Source of the DNA: Alphaproteobacteria bacterium
GTDB lineage: Bacteria; Pseudomonadota; Alphaproteobacteria; UBA8366; GCA-2717185
Direction of reading: 5' to 3'
Assembly: GCA_040905865.1 (NCBI GenBank)
Contig: JBBDQU010000024.1
Coordinates: 1 to 45,664, forward strand
Length of the DNA stretch: 45,664 bases
Shown: positions 10,493 through 22,065 of the stretch, piece after piece
Position numbering within the stretch: the stretch's first letter is position 1
How the letters are laid out: each line of letters starts with the position of its first letter
Notes under the pieces: model-generated
What the model was told of the DNA's origin: nothing
The model's input: the letters and a program-made list of their open reading frames with translations, nothing else
Database searches by the model: none
Made by a program: the position numbers and the translations under genes

Positions 10493-11242
10493 TCAGCAAT
10501 CGGCAATGCGTTCGAGACGATGCCGGTCCAGGACCACGATCCTGCGCCCGTCAATCGCCAGCAGGGACTGCTTCTGGAAGCGGTCCAGCGAGGCGGTAAC
10601 CCACTGGCGGGTGGCGCCGACCATGTTGGCGAGTTCCTCATGGGTGAGGGAACGGTCGATAAGGGTGCCTTTCGGTATCCGCGCGCCATCCAGTTCGCAC
10701 AGGGTCAGCAACAGCTGCGCCAGCCGTTGCAGGACAGAGCGTGTTCCCAGCATCTGCACCAGGGCTGAATAACACTTGCCCTTGAACACCAGCCCTTCGA
10801 CGAGCCCAGCGGCAAGGCCGGGCAATTCCGCCATCAACCGCCGTAATGACGCGCCCCGCAGATGGAGCAGCCGGCTGTCCGTCATGGCCGTGGCCGACCA
10901 CATGTGATATCCGCCGCCGAAGATTTCCGGCCCGCCAACGAAATGCCCCGGCGTCCAGTAGGCCAGCGTCAATTCCCGCCCCGAAGGGCCATGATAGAAG
11001 GTTCGCACGCTCCCGCTTTCGATCACATAGATGCCGTCATGGGCGTCGCCCTGGGCGAAAACCTGTTGATGGGCGGATACGGCAATATCGTAGCCGACAT
11101 CGCGGACACGTCGATACTCGTCGCCCGAAAGGCGCGCCAGAAAATTCGGACGCTCCGTAATGTCGACCAGTGTTTCGGTCAGATAGAGCGCCGATGCGGG
11201 ATCGTCGGAGCTTTTGGGAAGCCCTGCGGGAGTATCTTTCAT
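10493..11242 (-). CDS. Crp/Fnr-family transcriptional regulator
   Basis: The product has 249 residues. A cyclic-nucleotide-type beta-roll lies at about 40-145 (QGDAHDGIYVIESGSVR) and a winged helix at about 165-240 (LTHEELANMVGATRQWVTAS). There is no cysteine cluster for an iron-sulfur centre, so it is not an oxygen-sensing Fnr; the effector is unknown. GGAG precedes the ATG, which overlaps the stop codon of the cytochrome c gene (ATGA). It is the last gene of the minus-strand cluster beginning near 22 kb and could regulate that cluster in response to redox state or a ligand. Confidence 0.88.
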   Translation of the reverse strand: MKDTPAGLPKSSDDPASALYLTETLVDITERPNFLARLSGDEYRRVRDVGYDIAVSAHQQVFAQGDAHDGIYVIESGSVRTFYHGPSGRELTLAYWTPGHFVGGPEIFGGGYHMWSATAMTDSRLLHLRGASLRRLMAELPGLAAGLVEGLVFKGKCYSALVQMLGTRSVLQRLAQLLLTLCELDGARIPKGTLIDRSLTHEELANMVGATRQWVTASLDRFQKQSLLAIDGRRIVVLDRHRLERIADC

Positions 11243-11868
11243 GGTTGTCTCCGCTGTTGGCGTGGCCGGCTGGCGGCGTAGGTGGCGACAGCCTCGATTT
11301 CGTGCTCGGAAAGTTTCGCGGCGACCGACCGCATTACACCTTCGGGGTCGTTTGTCCGGCTGGCGGTCTGGAAATCGCGCAGCTGTTTTGCGATATAATC
11401 CGGATGCTGGGCCGTGATGTGCGGATAGCGCCCCGGATCCGCGCCATCGACGTGGCAGCCTGCGCAGGCGGGCAGGTCCCGGGCGGGATCGCCGTGATGA
11501 AAGATCTTCGCGCCCGAGGGAAAATGCGTATCGGCGGCAGGGACGATGGGTTCCGGCGCCGCCTGACTGCTGAAATGCCGGGCGACGACAGCAATTTCCG
11601 ACGCCGCCAGAAGCCCCGCATTGTCAGCCATGACGCTGTCGTCATTCTGGCGGCGCTTGGCGCGAAAGTCCTCGAGTTGCTTGACGAGATAGCGCTCCGG
11701 CTGGCCCGCCAGGCGGGGAAACTTCGGCATGCGGCTGATTCCGTCAAGACCATGGCACATGGCGCAGGTTTCCCATGGCTGCATGCCGCTGGTATCGATC
11801 ATATCGGCCAGGATCACAGCCGGCCATGACGCCGCAACGACGATCGCGAGGAACAGGGGCTGCATCAT
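11239..11868 (-). CDS. Dihaem cytochrome c (c4-like), periplasmic
   Basis: The product has 209 residues with a signal peptide (about 1-21). Two haem-binding motifs, CAMCH (35-39) and CAGCH (135-139), each sit in a similar domain containing a PxLAGQ/ITAQHPxYxxKQLxDF-type segment. This is the two-domain pattern of cytochrome c4, an electron shuttle in the periplasm. It starts 3 bases after the stop of the PCu(A)C gene and ends in an ATGA overlap with the Crp/Fnr gene, so translation is probably coupled. No terminal oxidase gene is in the window, so its partner is unknown. Confidence 0.88.
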   Translation of the reverse strand: MMQPLFLAIVVAASWPAVILADMIDTSGMQPWETCAMCHGLDGISRMPKFPRLAGQPERYLVKQLEDFRAKRRQNDDSVMADNAGLLAASEIAVVARHFSSQAAPEPIVPAADTHFPSGAKIFHHGDPARDLPACAGCHVDGADPGRYPHITAQHPDYIAKQLRDFQTASRTNDPEGVMRSVAAKLSEHEIEAVATYAASRPRQQRRQP

Positions 11869-11871
11869 CCT

Positions 11872-12357
11872 TCAGTTCATCTTGTGGCCGGAATGGCCGC
11901 CATGCGACATGCCGCTGGACTTCCTGACCATGGCTTTGAACGACAGCGTTCCGCCCTTGGCCATATGCAGGTTGATATCGACGGCATCGCCTTCCTTTAA
12001 AGCCGCATTCGGATGCATGAGCATCAGATGAAATCCGCCTGGCGCCATTTCGAGCATGCCGCCGGAAGGCAGGGTGATTTGATCCTGCCGGGTCATCGTC
12101 GCGACGCCGTCGACGATCCGGGAGTGGTGGATTTCCACATTCATGTATTGGGGACTGTCCGCGCCAACGACACTGGCCTCCGCAGCGGTGCTGTTGTGCA
12201 GCGTCAGATAGACGGCATGCATCTTCGCGCCGTTCGGGGCCAGGGGGACCCATGCATCGGACACCATCGGCATTTCCCCGGCGAATGCCGACAGGGAGGC
12301 AAATGCATACAGGCCGACAGCCATGGACAGATAACGCTTCGGACGGGACGATGGCAT
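11872..12357 (-). CDS. PCu(A)C-family periplasmic copper chaperone
   Basis: The product has 161 residues with a signal peptide (about 1-27). The core has the family copper site: VEIHHSR near 74-80, Met88 (VATMTR), the PSGG-M-LEMAPGG stretch and HLMLM (110-114). A His/Met-rich tail (SHGGHSGHKM) may add weak copper binding. Family members bind Cu(I) and pass it to cytochrome oxidase or other copper sites. The start is fixed by AGGAGAT just upstream; a longer frame upstream has no support. It lies between the SCO and cytochrome c genes. Confidence 0.92.
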   Translation of the reverse strand: MPSSRPKRYLSMAVGLYAFASLSAFAGEMPMVSDAWVPLAPNGAKMHAVYLTLHNSTAAEASVVGADSPQYMNVEIHHSRIVDGVATMTRQDQITLPSGGMLEMAPGGFHLMLMHPNAALKEGDAVDINLHMAKGGTLSFKAMVRKSSGMSHGGHSGHKMN

Positions 12358-12376: not shown

Positions 12377-13024
12377 CTATGTTTCCGACTGCTCGAAAAA
12401 CCGCAGCGCCTTTTCAAACTTCGTCGTTGTGTCGTCCGGGTCGAGCGGGGGCTGGAACTTTCCAAACAGGCGGCCCTTCGGGTCGATCAGGAAGATTTCC
12501 GCGCTGTGATCGACCCCGTAATCGCCGTCGCTGTCTTTGGGGCCGAGCCGGTAGAAAGCGCTGAGTTGTTTCGTGATCCGGTCAATCTCGCTTTTCGGGC
12601 CGGTCAGCCCCACGAAATCATCGCTGAAAAACGCGACATATTCCGCCAGCAGTGCCGGGGTGTCCCGGGCGGGGTCGACGGAAAGAAACACGAATTGCGG
12701 TTGTTGCGCCGGACCCAGCCTTTCCCGCATCCGGTTTTCGACCTCTGCCAGGTTGCCCAGCATGAAGGGGCAGACATCGGGACAATGCGTGAAACCGAGC
12801 GCCAGCAGCGTCCATTTTTCCCGGGCGGTCGCGGGGACGACGACGGATCCGTTTGCATCGGCCAGCGACACGGCATCAATCGGGACAGGCGCTGCAAGGG
12901 CGATATCGGCCAGTTCGTCCGGAATGCCGCCATCGCGCTGCAGGACGACACTTCCCGCAATGGCGACGCCGCCAATCAGAATCAGCGCAGCGACGAGCAG
13001 GAGGGTTTTCCCGGCGGCAGGCAT
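12377..13024 (-). CDS. SCO1/SenC-family protein
   Basis: The product has 215 residues. An N-terminal membrane anchor (about 7-26) is followed by a thioredoxin fold with the copper-binding CPDVC (81-85) and the conserved His173 (VDHSAEIFLID). SCO proteins deliver copper to, or reduce thiols in, the CuA site of cytochrome oxidase and related copper enzymes. Here it is transcribed after an ABC ATPase and before PCu(A)C. The trio SCO, PCu(A)C and cytochrome c normally accompanies an oxidase, but none is present in the window. Confidence 0.93.
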   Translation of the reverse strand: MPAAGKTLLLVAALILIGGVAIAGSVVLQRDGGIPDELADIALAAPVPIDAVSLADANGSVVVPATAREKWTLLALGFTHCPDVCPFMLGNLAEVENRMRERLGPAQQPQFVFLSVDPARDTPALLAEYVAFFSDDFVGLTGPKSEIDRITKQLSAFYRLGPKDSDGDYGVDHSAEIFLIDPKGRLFGKFQPPLDPDDTTTKFEKALRFFEQSET

Positions 13025-13032
13025 CGTGGCCC

Positions 13033-13884
13033 CTAGTTCCTATTCTGCTGTTCGAACGCTTTCAGCGTTTCGGCCCGAATGGCATCGATGCAGCGCTTTT
13101 TGATCGCGATGAATTCTTCCTCGGTGGCGATTTCAACGTCTCTCGGCCGTTCCAGGGACACAGTGATATCGGCGATGATCCGCCCCGGGCTGGCGCTCAT
13201 CACCAGGACCCGGTCCGCCAGAAAGATCGCCTCATCCACATCATGGGTAATGAACAGGACCGTGTTGCGGAACTGGGACCATATCTTGAGCAGGTTTTCC
13301 TGCATCATGACCCGTGTCTGGGCATCGAGGGCGCCGAACGGTTCGTCCATCAGCAGGACACTCGGATAATTGGCAAGCGCACGGGCGATGCCGACACGCT
13401 GTTTCATGCCGCCCGACAATTCCTCGGGATAACGGTTGGCAAAGGCGCTCAGGCCGACCATGGCAAGAAACGAATTGGCGGTGCGGACCGCTTCGGTATC
13501 GCTGTGTTTCGCAAGTCGCGGCCCGAAGGCGACGTTCTCCAGGACCGTCTTCCAGGGAAACAGGGAGTATTGCTGAAAGACCATCCCGCGGTCCGGCCCC
13601 GGTTCCCTGACCTCGTCATCGTCGATCAGGACACGCCCCGTCGTCGGTTCGATGAACCCCGCCACGGTATTCAGGAGGGTCGATTTACCGCAACCCGACG
13701 GGCCGAGGATGCAGACGAATTCGCCCGGCTCGATGGTCAGATGGGTTTTCTCGACCGCGCGGTTTTCGGATTTTCCCTTGCCGAAAACGATGCTGACATC
13801 GTCGATGACGATACGGCCCTTGGATATATCGCTGACGGGCTTTGCGGCGATGATCGTCTCAATGTTCGAAACGGGTTCCAGCAT
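13033..13884 (-). CDS. ABC transporter ATP-binding protein, NitT/TauT type
   Basis: The product has 283 residues. Walker A is GPSGCGKS (61-68), the Q-loop FQQYSLFPW is near 103-111, the signature LSGGMKQR is at 156-163, Walker B LLMDEP at 177-182, and the switch His214 follows. The sequence is close in style to SsuB, TauB and NrtD, which energise import of sulfonates, taurine or nitrate. Start: ATG with AGGAAAC upstream. It belongs with the permease and binding protein encoded just upstream; the substrate cannot be told from the ATPase. Confidence 0.92.
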   Translation of the reverse strand: MLEPVSNIETIIAAKPVSDISKGRIVIDDVSIVFGKGKSENRAVEKTHLTIEPGEFVCILGPSGCGKSTLLNTVAGFIEPTTGRVLIDDDEVREPGPDRGMVFQQYSLFPWKTVLENVAFGPRLAKHSDTEAVRTANSFLAMVGLSAFANRYPEELSGGMKQRVGIARALANYPSVLLMDEPFGALDAQTRVMMQENLLKIWSQFRNTVLFITHDVDEAIFLADRVLVMSASPGRIIADITVSLERPRDVEIATEEEFIAIKKRCIDAIRAETLKAFEQQNRN

Positions 13885-13898
13885 GACGTTTCCTGTTT

Positions 13899-14585
13899 CT
13901 ATGCGGTCTGGGTTGAAAATGTTGCGGAGCCATCGCCGGCGGGAACGGTACGGCGCCGGGCCAGCAGGCAAACGGGGATGACAAGAAGGAGAAAACCGCC
14001 GACTGTCATGACGTCGCCAAGCGGCTCCAGCCATAGCGCGAGGGAGGTGCTCATCCCCATCATGGCAAGGCTGACGACCCATGTCGGGGTCGCGCAGCAC
14101 ACCACCCAGCTCAGTGTGGCGCTGCTCAGCCCGACAAGGGCTGCGCCGCCCGATACGGAGGCAGCGACCGCATTCGTCCTGGGACCCGCAGCGCAGGCGG
14201 ATTTCTTCGGCCGCATCAAAAGGACAACGAAGCTGGCGACCAGCGCGGCGACGATCAGGATGATGAACAGCTTCGGCGGTATGACATTCATGGCCCATTC
14301 GGAGATGCCGTTGCCATAGTCGTAATTCATGTAGCCGATCTCCAGCAGCCATTCCTCGCTGACGATCCCGACCGCGTCCGACAGCGACGGCGTGCTGGTG
14401 AGGATGTGCCAGACATTCCGGGGCCAGTTGTAAACCGTCACATAGTTCGGAATGTTGCCGAACCGGACCAGCATCGTGGCGAGGAGCCCGAGATAGTAGA
14501 CAACGACAAAGCCTGTCAGGGTGCCGCCCCATACCCAGGGGCGTTCCCGGACGGCCTGTTTCAGTCCGCTCGCAATTGCGTTCAT
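13899..14585 (-). CDS. Four-helix membrane protein with vicinal Cys pair
   Basis: The product has 228 residues and I do not recognise the family. Predicted helices are at about 19-40, 104-124, 147-176 and 190-210, with an extracytoplasmic loop of about 60 residues after the first. The third helix carries Cys163-Cys164 followed by ATPTW. A CC pair in a membrane helix recalls MerT-type metal transporters, but overall similarity is not evident. There is no EAA loop, so it is not a normal ABC permease. Its start overlaps the permease stop by one base (TGATG) and the ATPase follows after 14 bases, so it is likely part of the transporter or of handling its cargo. Confidence 0.75.
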   Translation of the reverse strand: MNAIASGLKQAVRERPWVWGGTLTGFVVVYYLGLLATMLVRFGNIPNYVTVYNWPRNVWHILTSTPSLSDAVGIVSEEWLLEIGYMNYDYGNGISEWAMNVIPPKLFIILIVAALVASFVVLLMRPKKSACAAGPRTNAVAASVSGGAALVGLSSATLSWVVCCATPTWVVSLAMMGMSTSLALWLEPLGDVMTVGGFLLLVIPVCLLARRRTVPAGDGSATFSTQTA

Positions 14586-15496
14586 CAGTGTTTCTCCAGT
14601 GCCTGCCACCGCAGGAACGGTTTTGTCGCCAGGCGCACCAGATAGGTTGAAAGCGTGCCAAGGCCGCCGATTACCAGCATGCCGACGACGATGTTGTCGT
14701 ATTCGATCAGCGAATAGGCTGCCCAGGTGAAGTACCCGATGCCGTATTGCCCGCTGATGATTTCCCCGGCCAGCAGCGAAAACCAGGAGACGCCCATGCC
14801 GATGGAAAGGCCCGCCGCGATGCTCGGTAGCGACGATGGAATGACCACATGCCAGAAAATTTCCATGTTGCTGGCGCCCAGCGAGCGCGCCGCCCTGACC
14901 AGCACGGCGGGTGTCTGTTCCGCGCCAAGCGCGGTGTTCAGGACGATGGGGAAAAGTGCGCCGAGGAACGTAATGAAGATGATGCTGGATTCTTCCGTCG
15001 GCCACATGAGGATCGCCATCGGAATCCAGGCAACGGCGGGGATGGGCCGCAGGACCTCGATATAGGAAATGAAGAAATCTTCGGCCAGCTTCGAGCGGCC
15101 CATCAGCAGCCCGATGACGATGCCGATAACGACCGCGAAGCCATAGCCAATGAGGATACGTTTAATACTGACAACGATATGAATATAGAATTCCGACGTC
15201 TGGATATGTTCAAGGAAGGCAATGAAAACAGCCGCGGGATCGGGCACGTTTGCAAAATTCATGATGTAGTTGAAATTGTATTCGGTGAGGAGATGCCAGA
15301 AGGCGACGGCGATCACCAGCGCCCCGATGCGTATCGACCAGCGTTTGGCGGCCCGCGGGACCTGAAACGGTTCAGAAGCGGTGGCTTTGACGGCAACCGG
15401 ATCGGCAGCTGCGCCTGTCGATAACACCGCCTGATCAGGTGTCGTTGCGTCAGGATGGACCTGGCTGATACGCGATGCGCTTTGTTGTGCAGACAT
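14585..15496 (-). CDS. ABC transporter permease, NitT/TauT type
   Basis: The product has 303 residues. An N-terminal polar stretch of about 50 residues precedes six predicted helices. The cytoplasmic EAA-type loop reads AARSLGASNMEIFWHVVIPSS, as in SsuC/TauC-like permeases. It pairs with the ATPase at 13033 and the binding protein at 15574. It is coupled to the next gene by a TGATG overlap. A strong hairpin lies between it and the binding protein gene. The substrate is not predicted by the permease alone. Confidence 0.92.
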   Translation of the reverse strand: MSAQQSASRISQVHPDATTPDQAVLSTGAAADPVAVKATASEPFQVPRAAKRWSIRIGALVIAVAFWHLLTEYNFNYIMNFANVPDPAAVFIAFLEHIQTSEFYIHIVVSIKRILIGYGFAVVIGIVIGLLMGRSKLAEDFFISYIEVLRPIPAVAWIPMAILMWPTEESSIIFITFLGALFPIVLNTALGAEQTPAVLVRAARSLGASNMEIFWHVVIPSSLPSIAAGLSIGMGVSWFSLLAGEIISGQYGIGYFTWAAYSLIEYDNIVVGMLVIGGLGTLSTYLVRLATKPFLRWQALEKH

Positions 15497-15573: not shown

Positions 15574-16959
15574 TTATCCGGTTGTCATGCCGACGGCTTC
15601 TTCAAACCCGATGACCTTGCCGCCGATCGTGCCGGCATAGGCATCGGCGTCCTGCTTACGCAGGAAGGCTGTCATGGCGCCGTCCTTGCCCTGAACATAG
15701 AACGCCATCTTGCCGAACAGCTTCAGCCCGGTCGCCTTGTCGTAGACGTAGGTCGCATTCAGTTTCTGCGCGACCGTTCGGAATTCCGCGACGGCTTTCA
15801 GGAATTCGCCAATGGTTGCATAGGTCTTGATGCCATCCTTGGCGTGCCAGATTTCCAGTGGAAGATCGGCATTCTCGACCTCCGGGTCATATATGTCCGC
15901 GAGGTCCTTTTCGTAGTCGAGCGACTTTTCCTTGTAGGCCGCCCGGATATAGGTATCGGTAATCCATTCGTTGAAATCGAGTGGCGGGACCTGCTGTTCG
16001 CGGGCGAGCACGCCGTGATTGAATTTCAACGCGTCGACCCATTTCTCCTTGATTGTCGGTTCGAGGGTCAGGTGGCCACCCTTGCTGAAATAAAGGTACT
16101 GGACCTCCTTTTCGACACCGGTCCATTTTTCCAGGTTTTCCGCGGCCCGCATCGGGTCTTCGCGAACCCAGTCGCCGGCATCAATCACCGCCTTGAGGAA
16201 GGCAATGACGACCTCGGGATATTCCCTGGCCAGTTCCTGGCGCACGACGACGCCGTGGAGGTAGGGAATAGTTGTTTCGCTGCCGTCATAGATTTTGCGG
16301 CCCGTACCCCGGAACTCCATCAATTCGGACCAGGGACAGAAATCGGCATGGGCGTCGATCTTGCTCGTGGCGATATTGGCGGCGCCGACAGCCGGGCTCT
16401 GGTTCTTTATGGTGATTTCCGAACTCGGAATTCCGGCATCCTGAAGCGCCTTCAGGGTCATGCCCCAGGCGGCGCTGCCGACGGGAACGGAAATTTCCTT
16501 GCCGCGCAGTTCCTCGAATTTGTAAATCGACGACGAAACCGGAACGACGACCGCGTTGCCCGACCCTTTCAGGTTATAGCCCGTACCGGCGACATAGAGC
16601 GTCCGGAGGCTTTCGGTTTCCTGGAACTTGGCGCCGTTCACGATGAGCGGATAATCGCCCATGACGCCGATGTTCAGTTTGTTCGCCAGCATCTGGTTGG
16701 TGATCGGTCCGCCCGAACTGTAATCCGCCCAACGGACATTGAACGTGGCATCCTTGTATTTTTCGGTCTTCGCCAGTTCGGCCAGCTGCTGGTCGAGCAG
16801 GCCAAGTTCCTTGACGATAATGCCTGCCGTATATGTGTCGGTACACATGCTCTGGTGCCCGACGCCTATGTTTATTTCCTCGGCGATAACTGCCACCGGC
16901 GCGAATTGCGCAAGCCCGACGGCACCCACCGCAGCGATCAAGATGCGTGATTTGTACAT
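15574..16959 (-). CDS. NitT/TauT-type binding protein with NosL-like C-terminal region
   Basis: The product has 461 residues, longer than the usual 320-350. A signal peptide (about 1-26) precedes a periplasmic binding fold like NrtA/SsuA, with GVGHQSMCTD near the start and SSGGPITNQMLANKLNIGVMGDYP. From about 375 to 458 the sequence (IKTYATIGEFL, ATYVYDKATGLKLFGKMAFYV, AFLRKQDADAYAGTIGGKV-GFEEA) reads like the C-terminal part of NosL, a copper-site maturation lipoprotein. The NosL metal-binding Cys/Met residues are not evident. AAGGAGG precedes the ATG. It should capture the transporter's substrate in the periplasm. The fusion assignment is by eye. Confidence 0.85.
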   Translation of the reverse strand: MYKSRILIAAVGAVGLAQFAPVAVIAEEINIGVGHQSMCTDTYTAGIIVKELGLLDQQLAELAKTEKYKDATFNVRWADYSSGGPITNQMLANKLNIGVMGDYPLIVNGAKFQETESLRTLYVAGTGYNLKGSGNAVVVPVSSSIYKFEELRGKEISVPVGSAAWGMTLKALQDAGIPSSEITIKNQSPAVGAANIATSKIDAHADFCPWSELMEFRGTGRKIYDGSETTIPYLHGVVVRQELAREYPEVVIAFLKAVIDAGDWVREDPMRAAENLEKWTGVEKEVQYLYFSKGGHLTLEPTIKEKWVDALKFNHGVLAREQQVPPLDFNEWITDTYIRAAYKEKSLDYEKDLADIYDPEVENADLPLEIWHAKDGIKTYATIGEFLKAVAEFRTVAQKLNATYVYDKATGLKLFGKMAFYVQGKDGAMTAFLRKQDADAYAGTIGGKVIGFEEAVGMTTG

Positions 16960-17318: not shown

Positions 17319-17843
17319 TCAGCGCAGCTTTCTGATCGTATCCAGAATGGCCGGGGAGTCCCATTTCCGATCGCCGATGGCGCCGTAATGGATGCGTCCA
17401 TCGGGTCCCACGACATAGGTCGTCGGCAGGCTCTGAATCTGCCAGGGGTCGAAGGTATCCGACTCGATATCCACCAGGACTGGAAATGTCACGGGCCGAT
17501 GTTTCAGGAATCGCTGGATCTTCTCCGGCGTATCGCCAAGATTCACCGCGACAAGCACGATGCCTTCCTGACGCAGGGTCGACCAGGCCTTCTCGAATAC
17601 CGGCATTTCCTTAAGGCAGGGCGCGCACCATGTCGCCCAGAAATTTACGACGACGACGCGGCCGCGATACGATCCGATATCGAATGTGTCTCCGTTCAGG
17701 AGCGACAGGCTGAGTGGCGGCGCCTGCGGCTTTTCCGGGAATTCGACGAGCGGAAGGCCTTCCGCCAGTGGCCGGTCCGCGATGGAAAATACGGTCAGCA
17801 GGACGACGATCGCCGATGCGGCTATCCTGAACCGGTTTACCAA
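17319..17843 (-). CDS. TlpA/ResA-like thiol-disulfide oxidoreductase
   Basis: The product has 174 residues. An N-terminal hydrophobic signal or anchor (about 7-27) is followed by a thioredoxin fold with active site WCAPC (Cys73 and Cys76) and the cis-Pro loop SLPTTYVV. Such proteins act in the periplasm to reduce disulfides, for example in apocytochrome c or SCO/CuA maturation. The gene start overlaps the GntR stop by 7 bases, which links it to the regulator and the flavoprotein half of the cluster. The cytochrome c and SCO genes downstream give plausible partners. Confidence 0.9.
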   Translation of the reverse strand: MVNRFRIAASAIVVLLTVFSIADRPLAEGLPLVEFPEKPQAPPLSLSLLNGDTFDIGSYRGRVVVVNFWATWCAPCLKEMPVFEKAWSTLRQEGIVLVAVNLGDTPEKIQRFLKHRPVTFPVLVDIESDTFDPWQIQSLPTTYVVGPDGRIHYGAIGDRKWDSPAILDTIRKLR

Positions 17844-18604
17844 CGGGGCACCAGAACCTTGAAACGATAGGCGTTCGGTATGCCGTACAGGTATTCGAAA
17901 TCCACCGGCTTGCCGGATTTCATATAGGCCACCCTCGTGACGTGAATGACCGGCCGGCCTGGCGCCAGGCCAAGCGCGCCGGCGATTTCGTCGTTGGCTT
18001 CCGCGACATCGATCAGGAAATCCGCATGGCCAAGGTCGTCATCCAGCAGGTCGCCCAGCAGTGCATAGACGTCGTTCGCCGACAGGTCGCATTCGGACAG
18101 TTTCCGGCCGAGCGGCAGGGGAAAATAGCTGATGTCGAAGGATAACGGGTTTTGATTCAGGTACCGGATTCGCTTCAGTTCGAAAACGACCGTACCGATA
18201 TCGAGGTCGAGTGCATCGGCCACGGAGGCGTCAGCGGCGACCTCGCGCGCCGAGACGACTGCCGAGCGTACGATATGGCTGGACTGTTCGACGGCTTCGG
18301 CGAGGCCCTGCAGCCGCCCGAGGTCCTGCACGACGGCGGGTCGTGTGACAAAGTATCCTTCACCCCGACGGCTCACGATCAGGCCGTCGTCCTGCAAGCC
18401 GGTGAGAGCGCGGCGAACGGTGACCCTGCTGGCGCCGAACAGGTCCATCAGATCATGTTCCGACGGTAGTTTTTCCGAGACTCCATAAGCGCCGCCAATA
18501 ATACGGTCGCGCAGGCTGTTTCGGATCTGAAGATACAGCGGCTGCTTCTTCGGTTCGGTGGCCGGTTCGACCTGCGTGCGCAGGGCTCCGGATACAGGAG
18601 TCAT
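17837..18604 (-). CDS. GntR-family regulator with UTRA domain (HutC type)
   Basis: The product has 255 residues. The winged helix at about 20-90 contains YLQIRNSLRDRI, LPSEHDLMDLFGASRVTVRRAL and GLIVSRRGEGYFV. A UTRA ligand-binding domain at about 110-250 contains FELKRIRYLNQNPLSFD. HutC-type regulators are usually repressors released by the substrate or an intermediate of the pathway they control. GGAGGG precedes the ATG. Placed between the HEAT-repeat gene and the TlpA gene, it probably controls this cluster. Confidence 0.92.
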   Translation of the reverse strand: MTPVSGALRTQVEPATEPKKQPLYLQIRNSLRDRIIGGAYGVSEKLPSEHDLMDLFGASRVTVRRALTGLQDDGLIVSRRGEGYFVTRPAVVQDLGRLQGLAEAVEQSSHIVRSAVVSAREVAADASVADALDLDIGTVVFELKRIRYLNQNPLSFDISYFPLPLGRKLSECDLSANDVYALLGDLLDDDLGHADFLIDVAEANDEIAGALGLAPGRPVIHVTRVAYMKSGKPVDFEYLYGIPNAYRFKVLVPRW

Positions 18605-18651: not shown

Positions 18652-19614
18652 CTACGCCGCTGCGATCCTTCCAATTGCCCAGCGAACATTCTTGCGAACA
18701 TCCGGATCCGGGTCTTCCAGGGCTTTCTCCAGATACGGCAGTGCAACGGAATCGGCGATTTCGCCAAGCGCCGCGGCGGCATCCTTGCGCAGGTTGCTGA
18801 TCGAATGTTCCAGGGCAGGAGCGATGAGCGGAACCGCACGCGCGACGCCAAGCTTGCCGAGGCTCCGGATGGCCTGGACCCTGACCTGCCAGTACGCATC
18901 GTCCAGAACACCGATCAGGCCGTCGATTCCTTCGGTACAGCCGATCTTGCCGATGGTTTCGGCCGCGATCTCCCGGACCCGCCATTCGCTATCCGCGAGC
19001 CCCTTCACAAGCGCTTCCGCAATGATGGGAAGGCGCGAATAAGCCAGTGCGCCAAGCGCGGCGCGCCGCACCTCCGTGTCCTGGTCGCGCGACGCCACGA
19101 TAAGTGCGTGCAGCGATTCTTCCAGTTGCAGATATCCGAGAACGCCAACCGCCTGAATGCGCACTCCCGCCACGGGGTCGGTCAGGGCATTCAGGGCGGG
19201 CATCAGCGAATCCGGATGCCGCAATTCCTTCATCGCCAGCAGTGCTTTCTCCCGAACGAAGGCCTTTTCGTGAACGGTGAGGGGCAGCAGGGGGACGGCT
19301 GCCTCAACGTCTTTCAGCTCCGCAAGGCTGTACGCGGCCGCCTCCGCGACTTCCCGGGAGGGGTCCTGCAAGGCGCCCGCCAGACCGGCCGACACGACGG
19401 CGCCGTCGAAATTTTCCAGTACGCGCGCGGCCTGCAGACGTACTTCATCGCTGGGGTCGGACAGGGCGGCGACGATATGCGGGACGACATCGGTGTCCGC
19501 CGTCTCCGCCATATCCATTACCGCAACCTGGCGGATCTTGGGGTCGGAATCGCCCAGTTTGTCGAGGATGTCGTCGATATCTTCAGATGAATCGAAAGGT
19601 TCGAATACGCTCAT
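18652..19614 (-). CDS. HEAT-repeat protein
   Basis: The product has 320 residues built almost wholly from about nine HEAT/PBS-lyase-like helical repeats of about 31 residues, each with a D-x-(D/S)-x-x-VR-xx-A-xxx-LG-type core (for example DPVAGVRIQAVGVLG and DAYWQVRVQAIRSLG). There is no signal peptide or membrane segment, so it is cytoplasmic. HEAT proteins of this kind act as scaffolds or assist cofactor attachment. The gene lies 6 bases after the ferredoxin gene, so it probably serves the flavoprotein-ferredoxin pair, as chaperone or scaffold. This role is inference. Confidence 0.88.
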   Translation of the reverse strand: MSVFEPFDSSEDIDDILDKLGDSDPKIRQVAVMDMAETADTDVVPHIVAALSDPSDEVRLQAARVLENFDGAVVSAGLAGALQDPSREVAEAAAYSLAELKDVEAAVPLLPLTVHEKAFVREKALLAMKELRHPDSLMPALNALTDPVAGVRIQAVGVLGYLQLEESLHALIVASRDQDTEVRRAALGALAYSRLPIIAEALVKGLADSEWRVREIAAETIGKIGCTEGIDGLIGVLDDAYWQVRVQAIRSLGKLGVARAVPLIAPALEHSISNLRKDAAAALGEIADSVALPYLEKALEDPDPDVRKNVRWAIGRIAAA

Positions 19615-19620
19615 ATGCCT

Positions 19621-19854
19621 TTACCTCAGAAGATAGGGGATGCTGACGGTCACGGCGCCTGTGGGGCAATCGGCTTCGCAGGGCATGCAGTACCAGCATT
19701 CGTCATACTTCATGTAGGCCTTGCCGGATTCCTCGCTGATCCGCAGCACGTCCAGCGGGCAGACATCGACGCAGACGGTGCAGCCTTTTTCCGCAATGCA
19801 TTTCGATTCATCGACCGTCACGGGGACGGTGGTTGGCGTATTGGCGATTGGCAT
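19621..19854 (-). CDS. Two-cluster ferredoxin, AprB-like
   Basis: The product has 77 residues. Eight cysteines form two [4Fe-4S] sites: Cys19, 25, 28, 32 and Cys53, 56, 59, 63, the last group in CWYCMPCEADCP. The order and the KAYMKYDECWYC segment resemble the ferredoxin part of APS reductase beta (AprB), which receives electrons from the flavin of AprA. The long C-terminal tail of AprB is missing. AGGAGAAAACG precedes the ATG; an upstream extension is unsupported. It lies between the flavoprotein and HEAT genes and is the likely electron partner of the flavoprotein. Confidence 0.92.
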   Translation of the reverse strand: MPIANTPTTVPVTVDESKCIAEKGCTVCVDVCPLDVLRISEESGKAYMKYDECWYCMPCEADCPTGAVTVSIPYLLR

Positions 19855-19903: not shown

Positions 19904-21646
19904 TCAGTCCCCGGCCTCGGCTCTGACCCGCTGGTTGTCATAGGCGCCCATTTCCTCGTCATCGATCTCGATGACATACGGCTCAACCGGGCGCTTGAAG
20001 CTGGTCATCCTGCCGTTTTCATCCTTTTTCAGCTGCGTATGGCAGAACCAATTCTCGTTATCCTTTTCCGGGTAGTCCGCGTAATGATGATAGAGTCCCC
20101 AGCGGCTTTCCGTGCGGAACAGGGAGGCGTGGGCCGCCATATCCGCGCAATCGAGAATCGACCGAGCTTCCAGCGACCGCATCAGCTCATGTGAATCCCG
20201 GACGACCATGTGTTCCAGGTCGGCGCGGACTTCGGCAAAGCGATCCTGCGCCAACTGCATCTTCCGCGTGACTTTCGGCGGTTGCAGGTAATCGTTTACC
20301 AGGCGGCGGGTCTTGTATTCGATCTGGTTCGGCGGGATGCCGTCCTCGCGTTTCGTCGGGGCCAGAACACGTGTCATTTCGGCCTCGACCTGTCCGTCGT
20401 CGAAGGCCGCGAAGTCATGCTCCGCGACGAAATCCACCGCATCCTCGCCGGCAAAGGCGCCATTGGTGAACGCGCCCAGCATGTAGTTATGCGGCACGCT
20501 CGCCATATCGCCGGCGGCATACAGGCCCGCGACCGATGTCCGGGCATTTTCATCGACCCAGACGCCCGAGGCGCTGTGCCCGGAACAGAAGCCGATCTCC
20601 GAGATATGCATCTCGATCATTTCGCGGTTGTAGTCGGTGTTGCGGTTTTCATGGAACCGGCCGCGCGTCGGGCGCTCCACATTGTGAAGGGTTTTGGCGA
20701 TTTCCTTGACCGTATCCTCGTGCAGATGATCCAGCTTCAGGAAGACCGGGCCCTTGCCGGATTGCAGTTCATTATAGAATTCCTGCATCATCTGGCCGGA
20801 CCAGTAGTCGCATTCGATGAAGCGCATGCCCTCGTTGTTCGCGGTGTAGCCGCCGAACGGCCCGGCGACATAGGCGCAGGCCGGCCCGTTATAATCCTTG
20901 ATCAGCGGATTGATCTGATAGCATTCGAGGTTCGTGAGCTCGGCGCCGGCATGATAGGCCATGGCGTAACCGTCGCCGCTGTTTGCGGCGTTTTCATAGG
21001 TCCCGAAAAGATAGCCGGAGGTGGGCAGGCCGAGTCGTCCCGCCGCGCCCATGCACAGGATGACGGCCTTCGCCCGGATGACGAGGAATTCGCTGGTGCG
21101 CGTGTTCACGGCGATGGCGCCGGCGATGCGCCCATCCGCGCCGTTCAGCAGCCTTGTCGCCATGAAGCGGTTGGAAATCAGGATCTGCTTGCGGCGCAAC
21201 TGGCGGTAAAGCGCTTTCTTGACCGTGTCGCCGTTCGGCATCGGCAGGACATAGGTGCCGACGTGATGCACCTTTTTCACGTCATACTCGCCCGTTTCGT
21301 CCTTCTGGAACCGGATACCGAAGGAATCGAGTTCGTTGATGATGTCGAAGCAGTTCTCGGCGTAGCGCAGCACCGCCTTCTGATCCACAATTCCGTCATT
21401 CGCGACGGTGATTTCCTTCGTATACTGCTCCGGCGTCGCATGGCCCGGAATGACGGTGTTGTTCAGCCCGTCCATACCCATCGAAATGGCGCCGCTGCGC
21501 TTTACATTCGCTTTTTCAAGCAGCACGACCTTGGCGTTGGGGTTCTTGCACTTCGCCTTGTATGCCGCCATCGGCCCGGCGGTTCCCCCGCCGATTACAA
21601 GGATGTCGGCGTCGACATGGTGCAGGCCCGATTGAATGTCATCCAT
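19904..21646 (-). CDS. AprA/fumarate-reductase-like FAD flavoprotein
   Basis: The product has 580 residues. The FAD-binding Rossmann motif is at about 15-30 (ILVIGGGTAGPMAA), with a GAISMGMDGLNN segment near 55-65. A central capping domain is followed by the second FAD contact (VAGLYAAGDMASVPH). The C-terminal part (ESRWGLYHHYADYP, NWFCHT) is typical of the succinate dehydrogenase/fumarate reductase/APS reductase alpha family. With the adjacent AprB-like ferredoxin it looks like an APS-reductase relative, but I cannot confirm the AMP/sulfite site, and no sulfate adenylyltransferase or sulfite reductase is nearby. The start is fixed by GGAG before the ATG. It is cytoplasmic; the true reaction is unknown. 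Confidence 0.85.
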   Translation of the reverse strand: MDDIQSGLHHVDADILVIGGGTAGPMAAYKAKCKNPNAKVVLLEKANVKRSGAISMGMDGLNNTVIPGHATPEQYTKEITVANDGIVDQKAVLRYAENCFDIINELDSFGIRFQKDETGEYDVKKVHHVGTYVLPMPNGDTVKKALYRQLRRKQILISNRFMATRLLNGADGRIAGAIAVNTRTSEFLVIRAKAVILCMGAAGRLGLPTSGYLFGTYENAANSGDGYAMAYHAGAELTNLECYQINPLIKDYNGPACAYVAGPFGGYTANNEGMRFIECDYWSGQMMQEFYNELQSGKGPVFLKLDHLHEDTVKEIAKTLHNVERPTRGRFHENRNTDYNREMIEMHISEIGFCSGHSASGVWVDENARTSVAGLYAAGDMASVPHNYMLGAFTNGAFAGEDAVDFVAEHDFAAFDDGQVEAEMTRVLAPTKREDGIPPNQIEYKTRRLVNDYLQPPKVTRKMQLAQDRFAEVRADLEHMVVRDSHELMRSLEARSILDCADMAAHASLFRTESRWGLYHHYADYPEKDNENWFCHTQLKKDENGRMTSFKRPVEPYVIEIDDEEMGAYDNQRVRAEAGD

Positions 21647-21717: not shown

Positions 21718-22065
21718 TCAGCAATTACTTGCCATCGGACATTTTTCGTTCGTTGCGATTTCGCGGAGCCAGGCCCAGGGATAAATCCCGCGATGTTCCC
21801 CGTCGGAAAAGACAAGGTTCAGGGCGTATGTGCCAACCAGCCGGGCATCCATGATCGTAATGTCGCCGGGAATCTCGGCGTCGGCGCCATCGATGCGCGC
21901 GCGAACCGCGCCGGAAGAGCGGCAGTTGCGGCGTAGTACCGCGGCGCTGAGGCAATGCGTTACACCGCCCTGCCAGCTGACCGTCAGCGCGCGCCGGTCA
22001 TCCAGCACCATGATCTTGAGCGGCGGGCCGGAAACGGGGCGTTCGTCGGGGAATATCTGTTCCAT
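21718..22065 (-). CDS. DUF971 (GBBH-like N-terminal domain) protein
   Basis: The product has 115 residues. The stretch LTVSWQGGVTHCLSA, followed about 60 residues later by YALNLVFSDGEHRGIYPWAWLREI, is the signature of DUF971, the small domain found at the N-terminus of gamma-butyrobetaine hydroxylase and as a free protein. Free members are often linked with iron-sulfur or redox proteins; the function is unknown. Two Cys in the core and a final CPMASNC could bind metal. It is the first gene of the minus-strand cluster, 71 bases before the flavoprotein. The ribosome site is weak. Confidence 0.82.
   Translation of the reverse strand: MEQIFPDERPVSGPPLKIMVLDDRRALTVSWQGGVTHCLSAAVLRRNCRSSGAVRARIDGADAEIPGDITIMDARLVGTYALNLVFSDGEHRGIYPWAWLREIATNEKCPMASNC

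Follow-up and report, generated by a model that had tools for sequence, protein, structure and literature searches.

A NosL-fold domain fused to a NitT/TauT-type substrate-binding protein tracks an AprA-like flavoprotein rather than copper genes

The analyzed window, a stretch of 45,664 nucleotides from an alphaproteobacterial contig (JBBDQU010000024.1), contains on its minus strand an open reading frame (ORF) at positions 15574 to 16959, which starts with an ATG at 16959, encodes 461 amino acids and overlaps a long plus-strand frame. According to the ORF, profiles and a structural model, the product is a NitT/TauT-type substrate-binding protein with a NosL-fold C-terminal domain. Pfam, phmmer, Foldseek and alignment place a binding-protein domain with SsuA/TauA fold at residues 27 to 310 (positions 16030 to 16881). 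In the AlphaFold2 model, it is followed by linker helices (residues 311 to 365; 15865 to 16029) and by the NosL-fold domain (residues 366 to 457; 15589 to 15864), which consists of two bbab units and in which the known NosL copper-site residues are absent. The N-terminal part matched Pfam NMT1 above the curated cut-off (33.9 versus 20.5 bits), and permease and ATPase genes are adjacent, as in NitT/TauT systems. The best Foldseek matches of the full model were SsuA and TauA, and the protein stayed below the NCBIfam cut-offs for SsuA (103 versus 163.5 bits) and for taurine-specific binding proteins (77.6 versus 304.25 bits). The original prediction described it as more than 100 residues longer than normal NitT/TauT binding proteins. 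Indeed, with the signal peptide counted, it exceeds the SsuA/TauA chains in the PDB (298 to 348 residues) by 113 to 163 residues. Since NrtA/CmpA chains of 385 to 401 residues are also among its fold matches, we restrict this statement to SsuA/TauA. A phage origin was rejected, as the protein had no PHROG match at E ≤ 0.01.

All neighboring genes discussed here lie on the minus strand as well. Downstream are genes for an ABC permease (BPD_transp_1 by Pfam; 14585 to 15496), a membrane-type protein without a Pfam match (13899 to 14585), an ABC ATPase (13033 to 13884), an SCO1/SenC protein (12377 to 13024), a PCu(A)C copper chaperone (11872 to 12357), a di-haem c-type cytochrome (11239 to 11868) and a Crp/Fnr-type regulator (10493 to 11242). 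The membrane-type protein has the conserved motif WVvCCatPxWvVgLamlG; its Cys-Cys part (WVvCCatP) is reminiscent of MerT, and we call it the Cys-Cys protein below. The SCO and PCu(A)C genes had been predicted downstream of the binding protein, and Pfam confirmed both. Upstream are genes for a TlpA/ResA-type thioredoxin that is present in part of the loci (17319 to 17843), a GntR/UTRA regulator (17837 to 18604), a HEAT-repeat protein (18652 to 19614), a ferredoxin of 77 amino acids with AprB among its family matches (19621 to 19854), an AprA/PAPS-reductase-like flavoprotein (19904 to 21646; NCBIfam PRK08275, 1077 bits, cut-off 587) and a protein with a GBBH-like N-terminal domain (DUF971; 21718 to 22065).

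This neighborhood is strongly conserved across loci. We clustered the ORFs around the best 80 of 119 relatives, with flanks of up to 10 kb, many of which end at contig ends. Clusters of the first permease (78 loci), the HEAT-repeat protein (71) and the AprA-like flavoprotein (69) were the most frequent of those considered here, followed by SCO and an FdxA-type ferredoxin (55 each), the di-haem cytochrome (50), GntR (49), an Fpr-type reductase (46), PCu(A)C (39), Crp (38) and a PF03601 (YeiH-type) transporter (32). In Methylobacterium radiotolerans (plasmid pMRAD01, L150), the importer genes are followed by those for FdxA and a ferredoxin-NADP reductase, and in Aquabacterium, a TauE/SafE sulfite-exporter gene is annotated in the cluster.

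For the comparisons, we used alignment A1 of 66 full-length sequences, namely, the window protein and 65 from the best 80 of 119 relatives. Left out were L062 and 14 ORFs that extend far upstream (L020, L021, L026, L029, L030, L033, L036, L041, L064, L076, L081, L086, L087 and L091). Alignment A2 comprises the tails of A1, and A3 comprises 35 NosL sequences from 36 NosL-family loci (L099 was left out), part of them taken from the 30 best genome-search matches. A second locus set extended about 8 kb to each side (6.5 kb in one case), and absences from either set refer to the DNA covered. The sequences fall into three types, the names of which are coined here: type 1, which has Cys39 or Val39 and includes the window protein, type 2 and type 3. 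The fusion was found in Alpha-, Beta- and Gammaproteobacteria.

All 85 aligned sequences, including that of the window, carry the tail; the set was retrieved with the full-length protein, which favors tailed members. With the A1 profile, 20 of 398 Pseudomonadota genomes gave matches at E ≤ 1e-60, all of them reaching profile positions 450 to 455 of 457. A relative on plasmid pLAtc3 of Acidithiobacillus caldus (L149:9977-10975) aligns only to residue 320. Because its 3' end runs into an annotated ISL3-like transposase gene, we read it as an interrupted gene and rejected it as a tail-less natural relative. Arsenic-resistance and VapC-type toxin genes are also located on this plasmid. Among open-licence PMC papers, we found none on this architecture or cluster.

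It had been predicted that the tail resembles the end of NosL. In the window protein, Pfam NosL matched residues 417 to 454 with 13.3 bits (E 0.11), below the cut-off of 24, and phmmer against the PDB returned NosL at E 0.32 to 0.34 for residues 418 to 455. In genome searches with Pfam NosL, the window protein did not reach E 0.1. An ORF whose translation reads like a threonine aldolase (L099:1171-2379, minus strand) matched Pfam NosL with 18.3 bits. Since this ORF outscored the window protein, weak Pfam NosL matches need caution, and a chance likeness of the tail to NosL was considered because the single-sequence score was weak and L099 had scored higher by chance.

Comparison of profiles with each other gave a different picture. 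hhalign aligned the tails (A2) with NosL (A3) over 79 columns at 96.0% probability and E 4.4e-9, an E-value that applies to a single comparison. A near-identical tail alignment (residues 365 to 461) scored 53.6 against NosL. In the controls, the best of 200 column shuffles reached 22.6 and the reversed profile 12.4, and the top score among 44 further ORF clusters from these loci, some of them overlapping-frame ORFs, was 17.1. Furthermore, the binding domain without the tail reached only 0.1%, while type-2 and type-3 tails matched NosL at 97.2% and 98.0%. Pfam NosL was detected at E ≤ 1 in 23 of the 66 A1 members (best E, 0.0018), and an hmmsearch of PDB sequences with the A2 profile gave no match at E ≤ 10. 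One full-length type-2 relative, L136, bridges the two families: it matched Pfam NosL at profile positions 9 to 125 with 35.1 bits (38 bits in the genome search), above the cut-off of 24, and it is 43% identical to the window protein across 443 columns, tail included. Among ten relatives retested as proteins, it was the only one to pass; eight others scored 13.1 to 23.0, and L138 gave no Pfam NosL match at E ≤ 1. Eight more fusion loci passed only with neighboring stretches added. We therefore rejected the Pfam cut-off as proof for many relatives (L130, L135, L142 and L146 scored 19.5 to 21.9 as proteins) and counted L136 alone. Domain databases that accept members like L136 may already show both domains together.

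The predicted structure pointed in the same direction. The full-length AlphaFold2 model has a mean pLDDT of 92.0 and a pTM of 0.89, and the model of the tail alone has a pLDDT of 95.9. In the full model, the first tail unit consists of strands 368-372 and 376-380, helix 383-395 and strand 400-406, and the second consists of strands 413-415, 420-423 and 429-432, helix 435-445 and strand 448-450, in line with the two bbab units of the NosL domain. Foldseek against the PDB ranked NosL first to fifth with the tail model (E 3.5e-5 to 1.4e-4; rank 6, E 0.5). VIA-align matched the tail to NosL 7og7 with Z 10.6 (95 of 99 residues, rmsd 2.3) and to four further NosL chains with Z 10.3 to 9.8, ahead of MerB (8.5; 92 residues) and of NosL 2hpu (8.1). 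Based on these rankings, we assign the tail to the NosL/MerB fold with NosL as the nearest relative. MerB has catalytic cysteines. We rejected a MerB-like lyase identity, since no cysteine is present in the window tail and only 1 of 67 type-1 tails has one beyond residue 366. The hhalign result with its controls, Foldseek, VIA-align and L136 rule out a chance likeness. Since profile, fold and bridging sequence agree, we conclude that the tail is a true NosL homologue.

PMC6530538 proposes a CXM motif, and possibly one further conserved Met, as the Cu(I) ligands of NosL. In A3, C11, M13, M63 and M96 are invariant (35/35), which makes two further Met where the paper counts one. Neither CXM nor the further conserved Met was found in the tail. 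C-x-M was present in 0 of 85 tails (from residue 340 on), and so was a Met directly after YVxD, the place of NosL M63; in the hhalign alignment, gaps of the window tail lie opposite both M63 and M96. Some Met occurs within residues 399 to 411 in 1 of the 85 tails and within residues 422 to 431 in 4. The window tail has M418 and M429, which only 6 and 4 of the 66 A1 sequences share, respectively, and His372 is found in 49 of 66. Beyond residue 366, all 8 type-2 tails and none of the 10 type-3 tails have a Cys. The type-2 tails keep the Cys of CXM, and Lys or Thr replaces its Met. Most type-2 tails (L131 to L138) carry another Cys where the first helix begins, and a disulfide is possible. Judged by these alignments, the residues considered to bind Cu(I) in NosL have disappeared from the tail. 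Because the proposed ligand residues are missing, we class the tail as a NosL-fold domain rather than as a copper chaperone of the NosL kind. True NosL was missing in seven of the eight fusion genomes among the relatives, including the window's own, and the genomes G009, G204 and G239 carry both. With true NosL as a proxy, we think a link of the fusion to N2O reduction unlikely.

The copper genes were differently distributed. Profile searches at 99 loci revealed, next to the 60 Cys39 proteins, SCO in 54, PCu(A)C in 39, the cytochrome in 49 and the Cys-Cys protein in 56 cases. Next to the 20 Val39 proteins, SCO was detected in 8 cases and the other three in none; SCO was found at one of the eight type-2 loci, and none of the four at the ten type-3 loci. 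One untyped locus has all four. Taken together, none of the 38 Val39, type-2 and type-3 loci yielded PCu(A)C, the di-haem cytochrome or the Cys-Cys protein in the DNA covered, and 9 of 38 gave an SCO-like match, with a profile that may also match other thioredoxin-fold proteins. Since the tail occurs in all types and the copper genes occur with Cys39, the copper genes follow Cys39 and not the tail. The suggestion that the NosL-type tail ties substrate capture to copper was thus supported only in part: a NosL domain is fused and SCO and PCu(A)C are adjacent, but the ligand residues are gone and loci in which no PCu(A)C gene was found are equally tailed.

A much closer companion is the flavoprotein. 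Model NF006131 scored above its cut-off in 21 of 398 Pseudomonadota genomes, which we take to be the same draw as in the binding-protein search because the listed handles agree. Twenty of them are all the genomes with the binding protein, including that of the window; these counts are not independent, because the binding-protein genomes belong to only 10 of 213 genera (those with the flavoprotein to 11). The exception, G416, has a flavoprotein cluster (L152:5783-9802) in which an MFS transporter gene is divergent to GntR. Over 17.9 kb of this DNA, we detected neither a binding protein nor a permease or ATPase of the window's kind, which fits a possible replacement of the ABC importer by the MFS transporter. 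G124 has the genes for both binding protein and flavoprotein, far apart. Among 59 related genomes, eight have the fusion and eight the flavoprotein above the cut-off, and seven have both. The copy in G009 is located on a 4.4-kb contig, and in G001, which belongs to the window's genus, the contig stops approximately 100 bases beyond GntR, at the expected place of the fusion. The G001 contig also encodes a NitT/TauT-type binding protein that is 25% identical to that of the window. We rejected it as a different binding protein serving the flavoprotein, because it belongs to a neighboring unit. This ABC unit (L129:2030-6179, minus strand) comprises an apparent M20 peptidase and a Crp regulator and is located next to the flavoprotein cluster, and the annotation of pMRAD01 (L150) shows a similar arrangement. 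We conclude that the fusion tracks the AprA-like flavoprotein rather than the copper genes.

The nearest solved relatives of the flavoprotein are PAPS reductase 8a8o (E 9.7e-60) and AprA. According to PMC10322725, the PAPS reductase of M. thermolithotrophicus consists of an FAD subunit of the fumarate reductase family and a ferredoxin-like subunit with two [4Fe-4S] clusters. The window's flavoprotein failed the aprA equivalog cut-off (157.9 versus 641.75 bits), and at two positions occupied by Arg in both AprA 1jnr and the PAPS reductase (residues 260 and 265 of AprA, counted on the alignment), it carries Tyr and Leu. AprA Arg265 has a role in APS binding. Because of the Tyr and Leu at these positions, APS or PAPS would be unlikely substrates of the flavoprotein.

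We favor, with a probability of about 0.6, the following explanation: the fusion is the substrate-capturing component of an ABC importer that supplies the flavoprotein-ferredoxin enzyme, probably for an organosulfur substrate, and its NosL domain, dead for copper, would serve in docking. The substrate is probably a small sulfonate-like organosulfur compound, which the flavoprotein would cleave with release of sulfite. This reading is based on the binding domain being closest to SsuA/TauA, the flavoprotein being closest to PAPS reductase and AprA, the PF03601 transporter at 32 of 80 loci and the TauE/SafE gene in Aquabacterium. The periplasmic binding protein would capture the small organosulfur anion, and permease and ATPase would import it, as established for the family. 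In the cytoplasm, the flavoprotein and its ferredoxin, possibly supplied by Fpr and FdxA, would reduce the compound, and sulfite could leave the cell via an exporter presumed, or annotated, to be of the YeiH or TauE type. The NosL-fold domain may anchor the binding protein to a partner in the membrane or periplasm. Docking is suggested by analogy, because NosL sits on the ABC transporter NosDFY; the PDB entry titles of the Foldseek matches name NosDFYL complexes. Since the copper-gripping residues are gone and the companion is a flavin enzyme, the tail would be a fixed docking or structural module rather than a copper carrier.

Four other explanations were weighed. The best of them, which we nevertheless regard as rather improbable, assumes a real copper link of the Cys39 branch that resides in the binding pocket and the Cys-Cys protein, with a soft-metal or thiol-bound substrate and with SCO, PCu(A)C and cytochrome as branch-specific additions. 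In its favor, at the 65 A1 loci, the Cys-Cys protein accompanies Cys39 in 47 of 51 cases and Val39 in 0 of 14, and the profile count over the 99 loci was similar (56/60 with Cys39 versus 0/38 for the others). H204 and H235 are invariant in 85 of 85 aligned sequences, and C208, like C39 a residue of the window's branch, is invariant in 66 of 66 A1 sequences. On the other hand, the pocket site is predicted from the alignment with SsuA/TauA, types 2 and 3 have Val in place of Cys208, the loci are related by descent so that the counts are not independent, and the copper genes may act for a respiratory oxidase. A combined scenario, which we consider less probable still, is that importers recruited the NosL fold for docking and lost its copper site, after which copper would have re-emerged at Cys39/Cys208 and in the Cys-Cys protein, so that copper- or thiol-bound sulfur is captured. 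We give a similarly low chance to the tail being a stabilizing appendage only, without a specific partner: the tails are less conserved than the whole protein (mean column identity of 51% in A2 versus 61% in A1), but they are present in all 85 sequences, with W371, G411 and K413 invariant throughout. Finally, it is very unlikely that the tail is a working copper chaperone that binds Cu(I) and passes it to, or takes it from, SCO or PCu(A)C, since true NosL homology, the SCO, PCu(A)C and TlpA genes of the window's cluster, His372, the CXM-position Cys of type 2 and Met 418 and 429 of the window tail are outweighed by the missing C-x-M and post-YVxD Met, the near-absence of Cys from type-1 tails, the poor conservation of M418 and M429 and the scarcity of copper genes outside the Cys39 branch.

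The fusion shows a dedicated copper-chaperone fold that, stripped of its copper site, has been put to new use within an ABC binding protein. The almost one-to-one pairing makes the substrate of the AprA-like flavoprotein testable via the transporter. Furthermore, a match to a domain named NosL in such fusions should not be taken to indicate copper handling or N2O reduction.

Compared to known systems, the window protein shares fold and sequence of its N-terminal domain with SsuA/TauA and, like them, has adjacent permease and ATPase genes; SsuA/TauA chains in the PDB are shorter and lack the NosL-fold tail, and the protein scores below the SsuA and taurine cut-offs. With NosL (PF05573), the copper chaperone for the CuZ center of N2O reductase, the tail shares the pair of bbab units over nearly its whole length, but NosL has CXM and Met 63 and 96, while the tail, fused to a binding protein, lacks CXM and has gaps at both Met. 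The fold also resembles that of the organomercurial lyase MerB, yet 66 of 67 type-1 sequences have no Cys after residue 366. Like AprBA and the M. thermolithotrophicus PAPS reductase, the window combines a flavoprotein with an adjoining small ferredoxin gene, but its flavoprotein is below the aprA cut-off and has Tyr and Leu in place of the two Arg, and its cluster includes a HEAT-repeat gene.
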